From positions 1,240,001-1,304,000 of the forward strand of contig NZ_CP093342.1 of NCBI RefSeq assembly GCF_022637555.1: DNA of 64,000 bases, written 5' to 3'. Origin of the DNA: Microbacterium sp. H1-D42. Its GTDB lineage: Bacteria > Actinomycetota > Actinomycetes > Actinomycetales > Microbacteriaceae. Under the pieces are notes generated by a model. The model was given only the letters and a program-made list of their open reading frames with translations, searched no databases and was not told the DNA's origin. The position numbers and the translations under genes are program-made. Shown piece by piece: positions 42,943 through 55,502 of this stretch (the stretch's first letter is position 1; each line of letters opens with the position of its first letter).

Positions 42943-43983
42943 GTGTCTGACGTTCCCGAAATCACTCCAGAAGCGGTCGAGGCCGCAGTCGTCGCGGCGC
43001 TGGCCGCGATCACTGCATCGGCCGACACCGCGCAGCTGAAGGCCGCCCGCGCCGAGCACGTGGCAGAGGGCTCGCCCCTCGCCGTGCTGAACGCGTCGAT
43101 GCGCCAGGTCGCCCCCGAGCACAAGGCCGCGTTCGGCAAGCTCATCGGGCAGGGGAGAGGCCGCGTGACGCAGGCACTCGCCGCCAAGGAGGCCGAGCTC
43201 GCCGAAGCCGAGACCGCAGCGCGACTCGAGGCGGAGCGGGTCGACATCACGGCGCTCGCATCGCGCTCGCGCGTCGGCGCCAGGCATCCGCTCCCGCTCC
43301 TGCAGGAGCAGATCAGCGACATCTTCGTCGGCATGGGCTGGGAGATCGCAGAGGGACCGGAGCTCGAGCACGAGTGGTTCAACTTCGATGCCCTGAACTT
43401 CGACGAGGACCACCCGGCGCGTCAGGAGCAAGACACCTTCTACGTCGACCCCACCTCGCGCCACCTCGTGATGCGCACGCACACCAGCCCCGTGCAGGTG
43501 CGCTCGATGCTCGACCGTGAGGTGCCGATCTACGTGCTGTGTCCCGGCCGGGTCTACCGCACCGACGAGTTCGATGCGACGCACCTGCCGGTGTTCACCC
43601 AGGTCGAGGGCCTGGTCGTCGACAAGGGCATCACGATGGCCCACCTGAAGGGAACGCTCGACCACCTCGCGCGCCAGCTCTTCGGCTCCGAGGCCAAGAC
43701 GCGCCTGCGGACCAACTACTTCCCGTTCACCGAGCCCTCCGCGGAGTTCGATCTGTGGCATCCGACCTTCAAGGGCGGCGCGCAGTGGATCGAATGGGGC
43801 GGCTGCGGCATGGTCAATCCCAACGTGCTTCGGGCGGCGGGCATCGACCCCGAGGTGTACAGCGGGTTCGCCTTCGGCATCGGCGTCGAGCGCGCCCTGA
43901 TGTTCCGCAGCGATGTGAAGGACATGCGCGACATGGCCGAGGGTGATGTGCGCTTCAGCGAGCAGTTCGGGATGGTGGTGTGA
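42943..43983 (+). CDS. pheS: phenylalanyl-tRNA synthetase alpha subunit
   Basis: The catalytic subunit of the heterotetrameric class II enzyme. The 346-residue protein has an N-terminal coiled-coil region (about 1-95) that binds tRNA. It then shows motif 1 around HPLPLLQEQISDIFVGMGWE, motif 2 with YRTDEFDATHLPVFTQVEGLV, and motif 3 with FGIGVERALM near the end. The GTG start is supported by the -10 spacing. The stop TGA shares its A with the pheT ATG (TGATG). Confidence 0.96.
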   Translation: MSDVPEITPEAVEAAVVAALAAITASADTAQLKAARAEHVAEGSPLAVLNASMRQVAPEHKAAFGKLIGQGRGRVTQALAAKEAELAEAETAARLEAERVDITALASRSRVGARHPLPLLQEQISDIFVGMGWEIAEGPELEHEWFNFDALNFDEDHPARQEQDTFYVDPTSRHLVMRTHTSPVQVRSMLDREVPIYVLCPGRVYRTDEFDATHLPVFTQVEGLVVDKGITMAHLKGTLDHLARQLFGSEAKTRLRTNYFPFTEPSAEFDLWHPTFKGGAQWIEWGGCGMVNPNVLRAAGIDPEVYSGFAFGIGVERALMFRSDVKDMRDMAEGDVRFSEQFGMVV

Positions 43984-46496
43984 TGCGCGTTCCGCTTTCG
44001 TGGCTGCGTGAATACGTCGAGGTGGCCGCAGACGCCACTCCGGAGGACGTTCTCGCGTCGTTCGTGTCGGTCGGCTTCGAAGAGGAGGACATCCACCGCT
44101 TCGAGATCACTGGCCCGGTCGTGGTCGGTCAGGTGCTCTCCATCGAGCCCGAGCCGCAGAAGAACGGCAAGACGATCAACTGGTGCCAGGTCGATGTCGG
44201 CGCAGCGAACGGCGGCGTGCGAGGCATCGTCTGCGGTGCGCACAACTTCGTCGTCGGCGACAAGGTCGTGGTCTCCCTGCCGGGGGCTGTGCTGCCCGGC
44301 CCGTTCCCGATCGCGGCACGCAAGACGTACGGTCACGTCTCGGACGGCATGATCGCCTCGGCCCGCGAGCTCGGCCTCGGCGACGAGCATGACGGAATCA
44401 TCGTGCTCTCGACGCTGGGTCTTGACCCTGAGGTCGGATCGGATGCCATCGAGCTGCTGCACCTGGACGACATCGCCGTCGAGGTGAACGTCACCCCTGA
44501 TCGCGGCTACGCGTTCTCGCTGCGCGGGCTCGCGCGCGAGTACTCGCACGCCACGGGTGCGGCCTTCCGCGACCCCGCCGAGCGCGATTTCGCCGAGCTT
44601 CAGCCGGGTTCCGGCTTCTCGATCAGCGTCGATGACCGCAGCCCGATCCGCGGCAACATCGGTGCGCGCGAGTTCGTCGCCCGCGTGGTCCGCGGCGTCG
44701 ACCCGTCCCGCCAGACTCCGCCGTGGATGATCGCGCGGCTGGCACTCGCCGGGATGCGCTCGCTCGGCGTTCTCATCGACATCACCAACTACGTCATGCT
44801 TGAGCTCGGCAACCCCGTGCACGGCTACGATCTCGACAAGCTCAACGGCGGCATCGTCGTGCGGCGCGCGAACGAAGGCGAGCGGATGACGACGCTCGAT
44901 GGTCAGGATCGAGCCCTGCACACCGATGACCTGCTCATCACCGACGGCTCGGGTGCGATCGGACTGGCCGGCGTCATGGGCGGCGGCACCACCGAGATGA
45001 GCGACACGACCCGCAATGTGCTGGTCGAGGCGGCCAGCTTCGACCCGATCACGATCGCGCGCTCCGCACGTCGGCACAAGCTGCCGAGCGAAGCGTCCAA
45101 GCGCTTCGAGCGCGGCACCGACCCGCTGATCCCCTTCGTCGCGGCACGCCGCGTGGCCGACCTGATGGTAGAGCTCGCCGGTGGCACGCTGACCGATGAG
45201 GGCGGCGCGCTGTACGCCGACGTCGAGATCGCCGGCATCGACCTGCCGCGTGGCTTCACGCAGGGCGTCATCGGCGTGGACTACACCGACGACGAGGTCG
45301 TCGGTGCGCTGCAGACGATCGGTGCCGAAGTCGACGCCGCTGCTGATGGCGACGGTGGCTGGCTCGTCATCCCGCCGAGCTGGCGCCCCGACCTCACCGA
45401 CAAGTGGACTCTTGTCGAAGAGGTGGCTCGCATCCACGGACTCGACCGCATCCCGTCGGTGCTGCCGACTCCGCCGTCCGGCCGTGGATACACGGCGCTG
45501 CAGCAGGGGCGCAAGCGCGTGGCGGATGCCCTCGCAGCTTCCGGCCTCGTCGAGACGCCGTCCTTCCCGTTCACATCCGAGGAGCTCAACGACCTGCACG
45601 GCTCCGCGTCGGGTGAGCACCTGCCCAGCATCCGCCTGGCGAACGCGCTTGACGGACAGGCGCCGTTCCTGCGCCGCTCGCTGCTGCCCGCCCTGGTGCA
45701 GACCGCGCACCGCAACATCTCCCGCGGTCTGGTCGACCTCGGCGTCTTCGAGATCGGCTCGGTCTTCACCCCAGAGCCCGGCGTCGAGTACGGCACCGAC
45801 TTCATCCCGCCCCTAGGGCAGCGCCCGAGCGACGAGACGCTTGCCGAACTGAACGCGGCGATCCCGCCGCAGCCGCGTCACGTGGCCGTGCTGCTCGCCG
45901 GCAACATCACGCCGCGCCAGCCGGGTCGCTCCGCGGAGCACGTCGACCTGTCGGACGCTCTGGATGCGGTTCGAGTGATCGGCGTCGCCGCCGGCGCCGC
46001 GATCGACGTGACGCAGACGCAGCGTGCGGCCCTGCACCCGGGACGCGCCGGTTCGCTGAGCGTGCGCGGTGAGCAGATCGGATTCGTCGGCGAACTGCAC
46101 CCGCAGGTCTCGGCAGACGCCGACCTTCTTGGCCGCGTGATCGTCGTCGAGCTCGACCTCGACCGCCTGCTGACGCTGGCGGGGGAGCGTGTCGTCGCCG
46201 AATCGCTGTCGACGTTCCCTGCGGCCACGCAGGACGTCTCGCTCGTCGTCGGCGTCGAGGTCCCGGCATCCGAGGTCCGCGCCGCTCTGATCGAGGGTGC
46301 AGGAGACCTGCTCGAATCGGCTCGACTCGTCGACGACTACCGCGGCGAAGGTCTGGACGAGGGCAAGAAGAGCCTCAGCTACGCGCTGCGATTCCGGGCA
46401 TCCGATCGCACCCTCACGGCCGCAGAGGCGACCGAGGCGAAGCTCGCCGGTGTCGCCGTCGCGACCGAGCGCTTCGGCGCCGGCATCCGCGACTGA
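43983..46496 (+). CDS. pheT: phenylalanyl-tRNA synthetase beta subunit
   Basis: The 837-residue partner of PheS. It begins MRVPLSWLREYVEV. An EMAP-type tRNA-binding domain (about 40-150, VVVGQVLSIEPEPQKNGK), the B3/B4 editing domain, the B5 domain (IDLPRGFTQGVIGVDYTDDEVVGALQTIG) and a C-terminal anticodon-binding FDX-ACB domain (STFPAATQDVSLVV... SLSYALRFRASDRTLTAAEA) are recognisable in order. The start overlaps the pheS stop, keeping subunit ratios equal. Confidence 0.96.
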   Translation: MRVPLSWLREYVEVAADATPEDVLASFVSVGFEEEDIHRFEITGPVVVGQVLSIEPEPQKNGKTINWCQVDVGAANGGVRGIVCGAHNFVVGDKVVVSLPGAVLPGPFPIAARKTYGHVSDGMIASARELGLGDEHDGIIVLSTLGLDPEVGSDAIELLHLDDIAVEVNVTPDRGYAFSLRGLAREYSHATGAAFRDPAERDFAELQPGSGFSISVDDRSPIRGNIGAREFVARVVRGVDPSRQTPPWMIARLALAGMRSLGVLIDITNYVMLELGNPVHGYDLDKLNGGIVVRRANEGERMTTLDGQDRALHTDDLLITDGSGAIGLAGVMGGGTTEMSDTTRNVLVEAASFDPITIARSARRHKLPSEASKRFERGTDPLIPFVAARRVADLMVELAGGTLTDEGGALYADVEIAGIDLPRGFTQGVIGVDYTDDEVVGALQTIGAEVDAAADGDGGWLVIPPSWRPDLTDKWTLVEEVARIHGLDRIPSVLPTPPSGRGYTALQQGRKRVADALAASGLVETPSFPFTSEELNDLHGSASGEHLPSIRLANALDGQAPFLRRSLLPALVQTAHRNISRGLVDLGVFEIGSVFTPEPGVEYGTDFIPPLGQRPSDETLAELNAAIPPQPRHVAVLLAGNITPRQPGRSAEHVDLSDALDAVRVIGVAAGAAIDVTQTQRAALHPGRAGSLSVRGEQIGFVGELHPQVSADADLLGRVIVVELDLDRLLTLAGERVVAESLSTFPAATQDVSLVVGVEVPASEVRAALIEGAGDLLESARLVDDYRGEGLDEGKKSLSYALRFRASDRTLTAAEATEAKLAGVAVATERFGAGIRD

Positions 46497-47617: not shown

Positions 47618-48574
47618 ATGACTCAGGTGCTCGTGCTCGGCGGAACAGGGTGGCTCTCGGGACGGATCGCGCGGCGCTGGCGCGATGCCGGCGCCCAGGT
47701 CACATGCCTGGCGCGGGGAGAGCGACCGTCCCCGAACGGCACGCTGCTGCTGCGCGGCGATCGCGATGACACGCAGGTCTTCGATGACCTGCGCCTCAGG
47801 CAGTGGGATGAGGTCGTCGACGTCTCATCACGGGCTGACCATGTGCAGGCCGCGGTCGCCGCCCTCGGGCCGGTCGCCGGCCGCTGGACGTACATCTCGT
47901 CGCTGTCGGTGTACTCCGACGACGTCACGGTCGGCGGTGACGAGTCCGCACCGCGTCATGCGCCGGCGCAGCCGGGCGATGAGTACGAGTACGGCGCGCA
48001 GAAGGTCGCTGCCGAAGACGCCGTGCAGACACTCGGCGACCGCGCGGCGATCATCCGGCCAGGGCTGATCGTCGGTGCGGGCGACGGCAGTGACCGATTC
48101 GGCTACTGGGCGGCGGCGTTCGCGCGCGCAGGGGATGGGCCAGTGCTGCTGCCGCCGACGGAGGGCGCGTCCACGCAGGTGATCGACGTCGAGGACGTCG
48201 CGGACTTCGCGCTGATCGCACCTGCCGGCCGCGCCGTGAACGCCATCGGCGACCAGCATCCGCTCGGCGAGGTGCTGCAGGCCATCCGCACTGCCGCCGG
48301 GCACACCGGCGAGGTCGTCACCGTCAGCGCCGAGCGGCTGCTCGAGCAGGACGTCAACCACTGGATGGGGGAGCGGTCTCTGCCGCTCTGGCTGCCAGAC
48401 GACATGCCCGGCTTCATGACCCACAGCAACGCCGCGTACCGCGCAGCGGGCGGAGAGCTGCGCCCGCTCGAGGACACGATCGCCGACGTGCTCGCCGACG
48501 AGCGGGAGCGCGGCGTCGATCGCGAGCGTCGGTCGGGACTGAGCCGCGCAGAGGAACTCGCGCTGCTGGGCTGA
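47618..48574 (+). CDS. NAD(P)-dependent epimerase/dehydratase (extended SDR)
   Basis: A 318-residue Rossmann-fold protein. The nucleotide-binding motif VLVLGGTGWLSGRIARRW is at the N-terminus, and YISSLSVYSDD with a later YEYGAQKVAAED gives the Ser-Tyr-Lys region of extended SDRs (the Tyr-x3-Lys spacing is YGAQK). The second half (SAERLLEQDVNHWMGERSLPLWLP) is the substrate-binding part. The sugar or nucleotide substrate is unknown. ATG 47618 is preferred; the frame extends to 47582. Its closest neighbours offer no pathway clue. Confidence 0.8.
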   Translation: MTQVLVLGGTGWLSGRIARRWRDAGAQVTCLARGERPSPNGTLLLRGDRDDTQVFDDLRLRQWDEVVDVSSRADHVQAAVAALGPVAGRWTYISSLSVYSDDVTVGGDESAPRHAPAQPGDEYEYGAQKVAAEDAVQTLGDRAAIIRPGLIVGAGDGSDRFGYWAAAFARAGDGPVLLPPTEGASTQVIDVEDVADFALIAPAGRAVNAIGDQHPLGEVLQAIRTAAGHTGEVVTVSAERLLEQDVNHWMGERSLPLWLPDDMPGFMTHSNAAYRAAGGELRPLEDTIADVLADERERGVDRERRSGLSRAEELALLG

Positions 48575-48609
48575 CCATCCTCGATTTGCGGATGCCGGCG
48601 GCGAGCCGA

Positions 48610-48615
48610 TAACCT
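48610..48615 (+). promoter_or_regulatory. -10 box TAACCT of the Arg-rich leader ORF (leaderless)
   Basis: TAACCT ends 6 nt before ATG 48622, the same geometry as for the leaderless protein genes around it. Confidence 0.6.
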
Positions 48616-48621
48616 CGCGGC

Positions 48622-48705
48622 ATGCCTTCGGCCCAGCACCTGCTCTCGACGCGCGCTCCGCGTGTCGCTGTGCTGCGCCGACGCCGCGCCGGCCGCCGAC
48701 TCTAG
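48622..48705 (+). CDS. arginine-rich leader peptide upstream of argC (27 residues)
   Basis: A short ORF that starts MPSAQHLL and ends LRRRRAGRRL. Eight of 27 codons are arginine, six of them in the last nine codons. It has its own leaderless promoter and lies 103 nt before argC. The segment after its stop can form one of two exclusive hairpins (see the next entry). I infer a leader peptide that senses arginyl-tRNA supply for the arg operon. No similarity to a named family was used; CGC/CGA codon choice and position are the evidence. Confidence 0.6.
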   Translation: MPSAQHLLSTRAPRVAVLRRRRAGRRL

Positions 48706-48801
48706 GCGACCCCGCGCAGCCTGTGCCGTCGTGGCATGAGGTCGGATGCCGGGTCGCCGCCCCGGCCAGGCCCGTCATCGGGCGCACACCGACCGTTAAG
48801 G
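48705..48801 (+). promoter_or_regulatory. possible attenuator and second promoter before argC
   Basis: GGCGACCC (48705-48712, overlapping the leader stop) can pair with GGGTCGCC (48751-48758). Alternatively GCCGGG (48748-48753) pairs with CCCGGC (48761-48766). The two structures share bases and exclude each other. A third small hairpin uses GCCCG and CGGGC near 48769-48782. TAAGGT (48796-48801) is a -10 box 6 nt before the argC ATG. Confidence 0.5.
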
Positions 48802-48807
48802 TAGAAG

Positions 48808-49861
48808 CATGACGTATACCGTCGCCGTCTCCGGCGCATCCGGCTATGCGGGGGGCGAGATCCTGCGGCTCCTCGCAGCCCATCCGGACATCGACATCCG
48901 CACAGTGACCGCGCACTCGACCGCCGGCCAGCTGCTCGCAGAGCACCAGCCGCACCTGCGCTCGCTTGCACACCTCGAACTGCAGCCCACCACTCCCGAG
49001 ATCCTCGCGGGGCACGACATCGTCTTCCTCGCACTGCCGCACGGCCAATCGGGGAAGTACACCGATGCGCTCGGCGACACCCCGCTCGTCATCGACGCGG
49101 GTGCGGATCACCGCCTCACCTCACAGGACGCCTGGGATGCCTTCTACGGCGGCCACTTCCACGAGCCATGGGCGTACGGCGTCCCGGAGCTGCTCGTGAA
49201 CGGCGGCAAGCAGCGCGACAGCCTGCGCGGCGCGACCCGCATCGCGGCCCCTGGATGCAACGCGTCGACGGTCAGCCTGAGCCTGGCCCCCGGCGTCGCG
49301 GCCGGAGTCATCGACCCGTCCGACATCGTCACGATGCTGGCCGTCGGGCCCTCCGGCGCGGGCAAGAGCCTCAAGCCGCACCTGCTCGGCAGCGAACTCC
49401 TCGGCACCGCCAATCCGTATGCGGTCGGCGGCACGCACCGGCACATCCCTGAGATCCGGCAGGCGCTCGCCGCGGCCGGCGGAGTGCCGGCCGATGGCAT
49501 CCGCATCTCCTTCACTCCAGTGCTCGTGCCGATGGCGCGGGGCATCCTCGCCACCTCCACCGCACCGATCGCGGAGGGCATCACCGACGCCCAGATCCGT
49601 GATGCCTGGCAGAGCGCCTACGGCGACGAGAAGTTCGTGCAGCTGCTGCCCGAGGGGTCGTACCCCCGCACCGCAGACGTGCTCGGCGCCAACACCGCAC
49701 TGCTGGGCCTCGCGATCGATCGCGAGGCGAACCGCGTCACGGTCGTCACGGCGGTCGACAACCTCGTCAAGGGCACTGCCGGTGCCGCCATCCAGTCCAT
49801 GAACCTCGCGCTCGGCCTTCCAGAGGACCGCGCACTCACTGTGAACGGAGTAGCGCCGTGA
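48808..49861 (+). CDS. argC: N-acetyl-gamma-glutamyl-phosphate reductase
   Basis: ArgC reduces N-acetylglutamyl phosphate to the semialdehyde with NADPH. The roughly 350-residue protein has the Rossmann motif [18 protein letters not shown], the GADHRL region, the catalytic cysteine in AAPGCNAST, and the later HRHIPEI motif with an essential histidine. The ATG lies 6 nt after the TAAGGT box. It opens an operon of six overlapping arg genes (GTGA junction with argJ). Confidence 0.95.
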
Positions 49862-51015
49862 GCGTCACCGCACCCCAGGGCTTCGAGGCGGCAGGCGTCG
49901 CTGCGGGGCTGAAGTCCACCGGCAAGCCCGATGTCGCCGTCGTCGTCAACCGCGGCCCCCGCAAGGTCGGTGCGGCCGTCTTCACCACGAACCGCGCCAA
50001 GGCGAATCCGATCCTGTGGTCGGAGAAGGTGATCGCTGATCGCGTCGTCGAGGCGATCGTGCTGAACTCCGGCGGTGCGAACTGCTTCACCGGCTCGTTC
50101 GGGTTCCAGACCAGCCACCTCACCGCCGAGAAGGCGGCCGAACTGCTGCAGGTCAGTGCCGGCGACGTGCTCGTCTGCTCCACCGGCCTGATCGGCACCG
50201 GCGACGAGGTGTTCCGCGGCAAGGTGCTCGACGGCGTCGAGCGCGGCATCGCAGCGCTCAGCGCCGAAGGCGGGCAGTCAGCAGCCGAGGCGATCATGAC
50301 GACAGACACCGTCGCGAAGACGGCCACGGTCGCGCGAGACGGATGGACGATCGGCGGCATGGCCAAGGGCGCAGGCATGCTCGCGCCAGGCCTGGCGACG
50401 ATGCTCGTCGTGCTCACCACCGATGCGGATCTCGACGCGGCGGAAGCGGATGCTGTGCTGCGCCGCGCCACCGGCGTCACCTTCGACCGGCTCGACTCCG
50501 ACGGATGCATGTCGACGAACGATCAGGTCACACTGCTCGCGAACGGTGCCAGTGGCATCCGTCCCGACCTGGACGACTTCGCCGCCGCTCTCACCGCGCT
50601 CAGCCGCGAGCTCGCCGAGAAGCTGCAGCAGGACGCCGAGGGCGCAAGCCACGACATCACCATCGAGGTGAAGAACGCCGCGACCGAGATCGATGCGGTC
50701 GAGGTGGGACGCTCTGTCGCGCGGAACAACCTGTTCAAGGCCGCCATCTTCGGCAACGACCCGAACTGGGGCCGCGTGCTCGCGGCGATCGGCACCACCA
50801 CGGCCGAGTTCGACCCCTACGACGTCGACGTGTCGATGAACGGCGTGCGCGTGTGCAGCGCCGGCGGCCCAGACCGTCCCCGCGAAGAAGTCGACCTCAC
50901 CCCGCGCGCGACGCACCTCGAGATCGACCTGAAGTCCGGCGACGCGACCGCCACGATCCTCACCAACGACCTGACCCACGACTACGTGCACGAGAACAGC
51001 GCCTACGCCTCATGA
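49858..51015 (+). CDS. argJ: bifunctional ornithine acetyltransferase / N-acetylglutamate synthase
   Basis: ArgJ moves the acetyl group from N-acetylornithine to glutamate, so the pathway is cyclic. The 385-residue precursor cleaves itself between Ala180 and Thr181 ([15 protein letters not shown]); the new N-terminal Thr is the nucleophile. [13 protein letters not shown] and [15 protein letters not shown] also match the family. The GTG start overlaps the argC stop. Whether it also uses acetyl-CoA (bifunctional form) cannot be decided from the sequence. Confidence 0.95.
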
Positions 51016-51926
51016 CAGACCTTCAGGACACCGCCCCAGAGGAAGCCGCCGACAAGGCAGCCACCCTCATCGAATCGCTGCCTTGGCTGAAGAGGTTCCG
51101 CGACCAGATCGTCGTCGTCAAGTACGGCGGCAACGCGATGGTGAGCGACGAGCTACAGGAGGCCTTCGCACAGGACATCGCCTACCTGCGCTACGTCGGC
51201 GTGCAGCCAGTGGTCGTGCACGGCGGCGGCCCGCAGATCTCCAACATGCTCGACCGCCTCGCGATCCCCAGTGAGTTCAAGGGCGGTTATCGGGTCACCA
51301 ACACCGAGGCGATCAGCGTCGTGCGCATGGTGCTCACCGGGCAGGTCAACCCGACCCTGGTGGCGAAGATCAACTCGCACGGTCCGATCGCGACCGGCCT
51401 GAGCGGCGAGGACGCCGGCCTGTTCGGCGGCCGCCGTCGCGGCGTGGTCATCGACGGCGAAGAGGTCGATCTCGGCCGGGTGGGCGACGTCGTACAGGTC
51501 GATCCGACCCCGGTGGTCGATCACCTGGCAGCAGGACGCATCCCCGTGGTCTCGTCGATCGCGCCCGACCTGGATCATCCAGGTCAGTCGCTGAACGTCA
51601 ACGCGGATGCCGCCGCGGCAGCATTGGCGATCGCACTCGGCGCCCGCAAGCTGGTCATCCTCACCGATGTCGCCGGCCTCTATGCGGACTGGCCGAACCG
51701 CGACTCACTGGTCTCGCACATCACGTCGACGGATCTCACGCAGATGCTGCCGAAGCTGGAATCGGGCATGATCCCGAAGATGCGCGCGTGCCTCGACGCC
51801 GTCGAGGGCGGAGTGGATGCTGCCGCCATCATCGACGGGCGAGTGCCGCACTCGGTGCTCGTCGAACTGTTCACCAGCAAGGGAATCGGCACGGAAGTCG
51901 TCGCCGGAGGGGCGGTCACCGCATGA
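51012..51926 (+). CDS. argB: acetylglutamate kinase
   Basis: ArgB phosphorylates N-acetylglutamate and is the usual feedback point for arginine. The 304-residue amino-acid-kinase-fold protein has [44 protein letters not shown] and [16 protein letters not shown]. The N-terminal extension of about 30 residues (ESLPWLKRF) is the kind found in arginine-sensitive hexameric enzymes. It overlaps argJ and argD by ATGA. Confidence 0.96.
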
Positions 51927-53142
51927 CGAACTGGAATGACGACGCCTCGCGCGACCTGATGAGCCTCGGCGGGCGGCTCGCGCTGCTCACGCACGGTGAG
52001 GGCTCGTGGGTCTGGGATGCCGATGAGAACCGCTACCTGGACTTCCTCGGCGGCATCGCCGTGAACTGTCTCGGGCATGCGCACCCCGTGTTCGTCGAGG
52101 CCGTCTCGACGCAGGCAGCCACCCTCTCGCACGTGTCGAACTACTTCGCCACCCCCGCGCAGCTCGAGATCGCCGCGCGGCTGAAGCGCCTGGCCGGCAC
52201 CGGTGAGAAGGGCCGCGTGTTCCTCGCGAACTCGGGCACCGAGGCGAACGAGATGGCGATCAAGCTCGCCCGTCTGCACGGCGCCCGGTTCGCCGAGGCG
52301 GATGGGGCCGGCCGCACCCGCATCCTCGTCGTGGAAGGCGCCTTCCACGGCCGCACCATGGGCGCGCTGTCGCTCACGCCGAAGGCGGCTTATCGCGACC
52401 CGTTCCTGCCGGCCGTGCCGGATGTCGTCACCGTCGAGCGCTCACTCGAGAGCCTCGAGGCCGCCTTCGCCGAGGGTGGCATCGCCGCGATGATCGTCGA
52501 GCCGATCCAGGGTGAGGCCGGTGTCGTCGAGCTGCCAGAAGGCTTCCTCGCACGAGCGCGGGCACTGACGACCGAGAACGACGCGCTGCTCATCCTCGAC
52601 GAGGTGCAGACCGGCTCAGGGCGCACCGGCGAGTGGTTCGCGTTCCAGCGCGAGGGCGTGATCCCTGATGCCGTCACGCTCGCCAAGAGCATCGGCGCCG
52701 GCTTCCCGCTCGGAGCCCTGATCACCTTCGCCGGTGCGAGTGACCTGTTCTACCCCGGCACGCACAACTCGACGTTCGGAGGCAACCCACTGGCCAGTGC
52801 GGTGGCCAACGCCGTCCTCGGCTTCATCGAGGACGAGCACGTGCTCGACAACGTCAATGCCCGCGGCGCCGAGCTGCGCGCCGGCGTCGAGGGCCTGCCA
52901 CTGGTCACCGGCACAACCGGGGCGGGTCTGCTCATCGGCATCCGACTGTCTGCGCCCGTCGCCGCCGAGGTGAGGGCGGCCGCCCACGAACGCGGCCTCA
53001 TCATCAACGCGCCCACCACCGATGTCATCCGCATCGCCCCCGCCTACACGATCGGCGACGCCGAGGTGGCGGAGTTCCTCACCCTGTTCGGCGCGGCGCT
53101 TGCCGACGTCGCCGCATCCGCTTCCACTCAGGAGAACCACGC

Positions 53143-53146
<4 letters not shown>
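51923..53146 (+). CDS. argD: acetylornithine aminotransferase
   Basis: A 407-residue class III PLP aminotransferase that makes N-acetylornithine from the semialdehyde and glutamate. Motifs are [69 protein letters not shown], the PLP lysine in [14 protein letters not shown] and [12 protein letters not shown]. It overlaps argB and argF by ATGA. Confidence 0.95.

Positions 53147-55502
<2,356 letters not shown>

Follow-up and report, generated by a model that had tools for sequence, protein, structure and literature searches.

A candidate arginine-codon switch with a predicted leaderless upstream ORF before the argCJBDFH operon of Microbacteriaceae

Leader-peptide attenuation, leaderless upstream ORFs (uORFs) as cysteine attenuators, and the sensing of arginine by Arg codons are already known. 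In mycobacteria, short leaderless ORFs with poly-cysteine precede an operon (Canestrari 2020, via PMC9031893; earlier candidates in PMC4633059). The argC leader studied here is similar to these in that a uORF with clustered codons for the amino acid of the pathway, predicted to be leaderless, precedes an actinobacterial operon, but the amino acid is arginine, the family and the operon are different, and two exclusive stems were traced here by comparison. Classical trp attenuators are present in Corynebacterium and Streptomyces (PMC1262725). They also carry the regulatory codons in a leader ORF and have an antiterminator and a terminator that share an arm, whereas the argC leader has neither a poly-U terminator nor a supported 1:2 hairpin, and its start is probably leaderless. 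The same survey of Actinobacteria from 2005, which included Leifsonia, gives no conserved RNA structure before arginine operons (PMC1262725).

Arg codons are used in three other settings. In Salmonella, pausing at consecutive Arg codons in orf34 of speF switches the RNA structure (PMC6386406). Such a change of the RNA fold by pausing in a uORF would be the shared feature, but orf34 controls polyamine synthesis via Rho and RNase G, and no arginine operon is concerned (PMC6386406). The rbfL leader peptide of S. aureus also senses arginine by Arg codons; there, in contrast, a biofilm regulator is repressed on starvation through a block of its ribosome site, so that the sign is opposite (PMC13009471). 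The carAB operon of Pseudomonas aeruginosa has a leader peptide with possible attenuation in arginine/pyrimidine metabolism, but the attenuation is tied to pyrimidines, and the gene and the phylum are different (PMC4997734). A leaderless Arg-codon switch before argC has not been described previously among the literature matches listed, none of which (titles and abstract starts of open-licence papers) describes an Arg-codon switch at argC.

The window analysed here is a stretch of 64 kb, positions 1240001-1304000 of a 3.66 Mb genome, and the nearest relatives of its argC are those of Microbacterium. The argC leader is probably (about 0.8) a leader-peptide attenuator for argCJBDFH, in which the position of a ribosome on Arg codons would act in place of ArgR. 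The leader gave no match at the gathering score to any Rfam family, those of T-boxes, riboswitches, and amino-acid leaders included. Neither argR nor argG lies between the genes of the operon. The argG gene of the same genome (L268) is unlinked to the operon and leaderless (TAGACT, 7 nt, ATG), and no Arg uORF precedes it; argG was dropped as a second target of the switch for these reasons.

The leader ORF and its conservation

The leader ORF, its promoter elements, and the operon are located as follows.

48586 to 48591, + strand: TTGCGG, -35-like element of the uORF promoter, 18 nt upstream of the -10 box
48610 to 48615, + strand: -10 box TAACCT, ending 6 nt upstream of the uORF ATG
48622 to 48705, + strand: Arg-rich leader ORF, MPSAQHLLSTRAPRVAVLRRRRAGRRL followed by the stop codon; 27 codons, eight of them Arg, six of these in the last nine
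48648 to 48666, + strand: hairpin within the ORF, 5' of the Arg run, of the GACGCTCG/CGAGCGTC type
48676 to 48687, + strand: four consecutive Arg codons, CGC CGA CGC CGC
48694 to 48699, + strand: second Arg pair, CGC CGA, with a CGCC that might base-pair to GGCG in arm 2
48798 to 48801, + strand: AAGG, Shine-Dalgarno of argC as best read, within TAAGGT (48797-48802)
48809 to 49861, + strand: argC (TIGR01850, score above the cut-off)
49858 to 55502, + strand: argJ-argB-argD-argF-argH, on the same strand as argC and tightly packed

The size of the ORF, its Arg counts, and a -10 box for a leaderless uORF had been given in a first-pass annotation of this DNA, and all of them were recovered on recounting. 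A consensus promoter scan called no promoter at the TTGCGG element. When leaderless ORFs were sought on both strands of the window (TANNNT, 5-8 nt, ATG or GTG, 15-50 codons), three ORFs passed. The leader ORF is the most Arg-dense of the three, with 6 Arg in 12 residues; one other reaches 5.

The first-pass annotation had named conservation of the Arg-rich ORF in relatives as a check of its reading. Such an ORF, Arg-rich and by its -10 spacing leaderless, was indeed seen ahead of argC in all but one (79) of 80 close relatives, the best 80 of 504 genomes encoding an argC relative. In the sole locus without it (L019), only the final ~40 bases before argC resemble the other leaders by eye. The 79 loci with the uORF and the window form the Microbacterium-type set of 80 leaders, from which L019 is left out, and which includes a few loci with another or no genus name (L046, Frigoribacterium; L058, actinomycete). 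Their uORFs have 23-43 codons and 5-9 Arg codons.

The family, taken from the named relatives to be Microbacteriaceae, was represented by the argC upstream regions of 96 further genomes, in which a uORF was accepted if it had 8-60 codons, five or more of them Arg, and a TANNNT box 5-9 nt ahead of its start. Six matches were removed since they lie in the 3' end of what we take to be a pheT-like gene, judged by likeness to the window ORF 43980-46496. Of these, L147, L173, L192, L196, and L200 were taken out ahead of the family count and L176 afterwards. The uORF was found in 49 of the 96 genomes, corresponding to 40 of 76 genera, and was absent from the other 36 genera; none of the 20 genera with at least two fetched genomes was mixed. 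Under a density rule that asked for 5 Arg within 12 residues, 45 of the 96 upstream regions passed, as against 3 of 960 Markov-shuffled ones and none of 60 taken from members of the order that lie outside the family (76 had been located there, of which 60 were fetched). The genome counts are not independent, so that Fisher values are a guide only. Covariance-model matches at E up to 1 (238 of 299 genomes) were kept out of the counting, as many of them are weak and may have arisen by chance.

The TANNNT box lies 6 nt (75 leaders) or 7 nt (five leaders) before the start in the Microbacterium-type set, and 6, 7, or 9 nt before it in 40, eight, and one of the 49 family leaders; the spacing is thus 6-7 nt in 128 of 129 leaders, in all of which the box itself was required by the search rule. 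TTTG is present at the -35 position in 71 of 80 Microbacterium-type leaders, but in only 7 of 49 family-wide leaders. The hairpin within the ORF (mean z of -1.34 in the 80 Microbacterium-type leaders versus -0.22 in 46 family leaders) is likewise a Microbacterium-type trait and not a family-wide one. Insertions within the uORF are in frame, for example in L018, L032, and L036. Those of L018 and L036, 30 bases long, are closely alike (GGTTCCTGAGCGAGCGCAGCGA...), perhaps as copies of a dispersed repeat.

Codons for the end product are clustered near the end of the uORF. RRR occurs in 74 of the 80 uORFs of the Microbacterium type and in 32 of the 49 from the family, and RR in all 49 of the latter. 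Of the 881 Arg codons that the uORFs contain, 253 are CGA, compared with 12 of 204 in seven window stretches, which makes this codon about five times commoner. Many bacteria translate CGA slowly, but RNA motifs like CGCCGA may account for part of this enrichment.

Two exclusive stems and the reading frame

Downstream of the Arg codons, the following elements can be paired in two ways.

48705 to 48714, + strand: arm 2, overlapping the last base of the uORF stop codon
48751 to 48758, + strand: arm 3, which pairs with arm 2 to form stem A (proposed starvation state)
48740 to 48794, + strand: hairpin B (proposed replete state), from RNAfold and the swap test
48740 to 48745 and 48789 to 48794, + strand: outer part of hairpin B, GGTCGG/CCGACC
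48748 to 48753 and 48761 to 48766, + strand: core of hairpin B, GCCGGG/CCCGGC
48770 to 48783, + strand: small hairpin GCCCG/CGGGC inside B

GGCGACCC (48705-48712) is fully complementary to GGGTCGCC (48751-48758). As the first-pass annotation had pointed out, this pairing shares bases with GCCGGG/CCCGGC: bases 48751-48753 belong to both, and stem A and hairpin B are mutually exclusive. RNAfold gave stem A when both arms were present (z of -3.00 for 48700-48760 and -1.15 for 48694-48823); once arm 2 was omitted, it gave hairpin B (z of -1.74 for 48738-48797 and -0.38 for 48718-48823). Hairpin B is barely above shuffles in stability, with a mean z of -0.37. The sequence and the presence of the small hairpin vary among relatives by eye, and this hairpin was dropped as a terminator near argC.

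Stem A was followed in alignment A2, which contains 78 leaders (47 from other genera and 31 of the Microbacterium type) and not L143, whose uORF is 324 nt upstream. Of the 80 Microbacterium-type leaders, 18 were left out of the Microbacterium-type alignment A1 and 50 out of A2, the window being counted in both. The nine pairs of stem A are formed in 89.7% of the cells of A2. Double changes are found in 32 cells, against 10.8 ± 2.6 after shuffling, and none of 500 shuffles reached this number; five pairs carry double changes, a weaker test since 44 of 500 shuffles matched it. When the arms were slid against each other, the true register was the best in cells paired, in double-change cells, and in covariation score. 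Compensatory arms are GGCGTC/GACGCC (L183), GGCGGG/CCCGCC (L052, L072, and L077), and GGCGGC/GCCGCC (L159). Pairs 5, 7, and 9 are not formed in 16, 25, and 21 of the 78 leaders, respectively, and among close relatives alone the arms are nearly invariant. The compensatory changes for which the first-pass annotation had proposed to look are thus seen in stem A.

RNAalifold on A2 gave the four basal pairs of stem A, without a covariation term, and on A1 it gave the 1:2 hairpin and the small hairpin of B instead. This difference is as expected if two states compete. The 1:2 hairpin, in which CGCC pairs with GGCG of arm 2, is paired in 84.3% of cells. Covariation was sought for it in the alignments and not found, and it was dropped as a conserved part for this reason.

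Since the arms of hairpin B vary between lineages, the duplex energies of own and swapped arms were compared. The own arms of stem A gave -15.2 kcal/mol versus -13.65 ± 0.24 kcal/mol for swapped arms, and those of hairpin B gave -14.4 versus -12.65 ± 0.31 kcal/mol; in the pooled set none of 300 swaps was as good for either stem. Within the 31 Microbacterium-type leaders, swaps as good numbered none of 2000 for both A and B; within the 47 other-genus leaders they numbered 10 for A and none for B, and with one leader for each other genus (39 leaders) they numbered 1 for A and 8 for B, again of 2000. The effect per leader is small, above all in the 47 other-genus leaders (mean z of -0.23 for A and -0.19 for B), and amounts to a mean z of -1.24 for A and -0.91 for B in the 31 Microbacterium-type leaders. 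In both stems, the arms of one leader thus suit each other better than arms exchanged between leaders, with one leader per genus as well.

The distance from the ATG to arm 2 takes 14 lengths in 77 leaders (L161, with a misaligned arm 2, being left out), and all 77 are in one single phase, although selection of ORFs by Arg content favours one frame. As 79 of 80 close relatives pass the Arg rule, this bias has little room there. In contrast, the distance between arms 2 and 3 takes 25 lengths with phases 33/23/21, and that from arm 3 to argC takes 23 lengths with phases 28/27/22. The two other frames are free of stop codons up to arm 2 in 51 and 71 of the 77 leaders; they are often open too, so that openness alone is no proof of translation. 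The single phase suggests that the short ORF upstream of the operon is translated.

Such strict phase conservation might also be shown by a conserved small Arg-rich protein that acts in trans, the GC-rich structure being incidental. However, the uORF peptides diverge strongly across genera, and the trait common to them by eye is Arg towards the C-terminus; the stop codon often falls on arm 2, and stem A covaries. A protein of this kind is hardly credible here. SpeFL is an arrest peptide whose sensing takes place in the exit tunnel. A nascent leader peptide that senses free arginine or ornithine in this way would fit the clustering of Arg residues towards the C-terminus, but it is very unlikely, given that the peptides of different genera share little beyond Arg by eye and that several of them extend past arm 2, those of L052 and L121 among them.

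The attenuator reading is preferred. In this mechanism, transcription would start at the uORF ATG and a ribosome would load at once on the leaderless message, as the spacing of the -10 box suggests. When arginyl-tRNA is scarce, the ribosome would halt in the Arg codons near the end of the ORF. Arm 2 would then be left free to pair with arm 3 in stem A, so that hairpin B is broken. With ample arginine, the ribosome would move on to the stop codon and cover arm 2; arm 3 would then fold into hairpin B, just 5' of the argC Shine-Dalgarno, and expression of the operon would fall. Where the ORF runs through arm 2, as in L052 and L121, the ribosome would have to pass over this arm. What we infer in this scheme is that the ribosome stalls, in which direction the operon responds, and how the output is brought about; B is put as the off state by attenuation logic, in which starvation favours A and plenty favours B. 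The geometry, with Arg codons upstream, the stop codon on arm 2, and arm 3 common to A and B, matches textbook attenuation.

A folding model that hides the RNA beneath the ribosome is in line with these steps. When the ribosome was placed on the final Arg codon sparing arm 2, stem A was predicted at more than 0.5 in 62 of 78 leaders, and 16 of 78 did not favour A. With the ribosome at the stop codon, stem A was gone and B had a median of 10.6 pairs, compared with 0.05 in the stalled state. Hiding arm 2 leads to some downstream pairing in much GC-rich RNA, which makes the swap test the real support. Taken from comparison and modelling, there appear to be two mutually exclusive stems downstream of the ORF, one of which would be freed by a stalled ribosome.

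The start of argC and the output step

The first-pass annotation had placed a separate -10 box of argC in TAAGGT, so that the hairpins would act only on transcripts from upstream. TAAGGT is found in 79 of the 80 Microbacterium-type leaders. The 3' end of the 16S rRNA in the window, CACCTCCTTTCT, carries CCTCC. In the family, an AAGG/GAGG-type motif is kept in 48 of 49 leaders with the uORF, 13 of which lack TANNNT, and 36 of the 49 have TANNNT 5-8 nt before argC. TAAGGT was accordingly rejected as a -10 box of argC, and it is best read as a Shine-Dalgarno sequence; in the leaders with the uORF that do have TANNNT, the element might double as a -10 box. Of 47 leaders without the uORF, 34 have TANNNT, 25 of them without an AAGG/GAGG-type motif. 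The natural reading of these sequences is that argC is leadered and translated from a Shine-Dalgarno sequence where the uORF is present, and often leaderless where it is not. Transcription of argC chiefly from its own leaderless promoter at TAAGGT, with the upstream leader being minor, might be supposed from the 36 leaders with TANNNT and from the leaderless argC of many relatives without the uORF. It is, however, unlikely in view of the Shine-Dalgarno-type motif in nearly all leaders with the uORF, including the 13 without TANNNT.

As side observations, argC often lies right behind the pheT-like end in family genomes without the uORF (within L115-L207), and its start there, TAGATT, 6 nt, and ATG, is that of a leaderless argC. 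In L147, L160, and L192 (genera g5, g33, and g29), arms like GGCGAC and GTCGCC are seen by eye in the pheT-like 3' end together with the short stretch between it and argC. The end of the uORF of L191 (RLGATPLR) resembles the pheT-like end (FGATLRD). The switch may have come from the pheT-like 3' end, as far as these resemblances go.

No intrinsic terminator was found at 48500-48900 of the window leader, and TTTT is absent from the last 45 nt before argC in the 49 family and the 80 Microbacterium-type leaders. The lack of a U-tract terminator means that the output would be either premature termination or blocked ribosome loading on argC. Plain sequestration of the Shine-Dalgarno by B is unsupported, its predicted accessibility being unchanged between the two states (0.50 versus 0.49). 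The 3' end of B lies within 6 nt of the Shine-Dalgarno in 46 of 76 leaders; after shuffling of the 3' sides this holds for 343 of 750 (p 0.02). This closeness is weak as proof of translational control, and it is favoured by the cut of the folded stretch.

In a variant of the mechanism, the sensor is the same and hairpin B is solely a transcription terminator, unaided or with Rho, so that translation of argC is unaffected. This is a serious contender, held at somewhat under even odds, which overlap with those of the best explanation. It would agree with one leader ahead of six genes, with the terminators of actinobacterial trp attenuators and the proposal of Rho for actinobacterial cys leaders (PMC1262725) and with the finding that intrinsic terminators are fewest in Actinobacteria (PMC2965389). 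On the other side, there is no U-tract in the leaders searched, and the inter-arm region, with C at 0.37 versus G at 0.33, shows no clear bias for Rho loading. Blocked ribosome loading with polarity is weighted slightly above pure termination.

The attenuator reading of the first-pass annotation is thus kept in part: the conserved ORF, the covariation of stem A, and the partner specificity of A and B speak for it, and the separate -10 box of argC does not stand. Comparison shows the ORF, its frame, stem A, and the partner specificity, along with the absence of ArgR.

Arginine control in a family without detected ArgR

ArgR is the usual regulator of arginine synthesis, and the first-pass annotation had expected it here as well. 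Contrary to this, a search of the genome for both ArgR domains found neither, and PF02863 was found in none of 299 family genomes (78 genera). The controls of this search, Corynebacterium glutamicum among them, gave matches. In an order-wide sample, PF02863 was present in 179 of 198 genomes: none of 15 family members and 179 of 183 others. Three of the four genomes outside the family without it are of 0.8-1.1 Mb. All 60 order controls that lack the uORF come from genomes with a PF02863 match. The family genera without the uORF are also without ArgR, so the switch would not be the sole answer of the family.

The most far-reaching proposal is that Microbacteriaceae lost ArgR as a family and that, in many of its genera, a leaderless Arg switch with no need of an intrinsic terminator, in which hairpin B blocks ribosome loading on argC, shuts off six genes. 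It is tentative and stands short of an even chance. If it is true, a ribosome sensor took over arginine control from a DNA-binding protein in one lineage, and argC shifted from leaderless to Shine-Dalgarno translation together with the switch.

A whole family is without detected ArgR, and many of its genera have a traceable arginine-codon switch. The 40 genera with the element and the 36 without it form a natural set for seeing how a repressor gets replaced. The same genera lend themselves to asking how attenuation can do without U-tract terminators and in what way leaderless translation could serve as a nutrient sensor.
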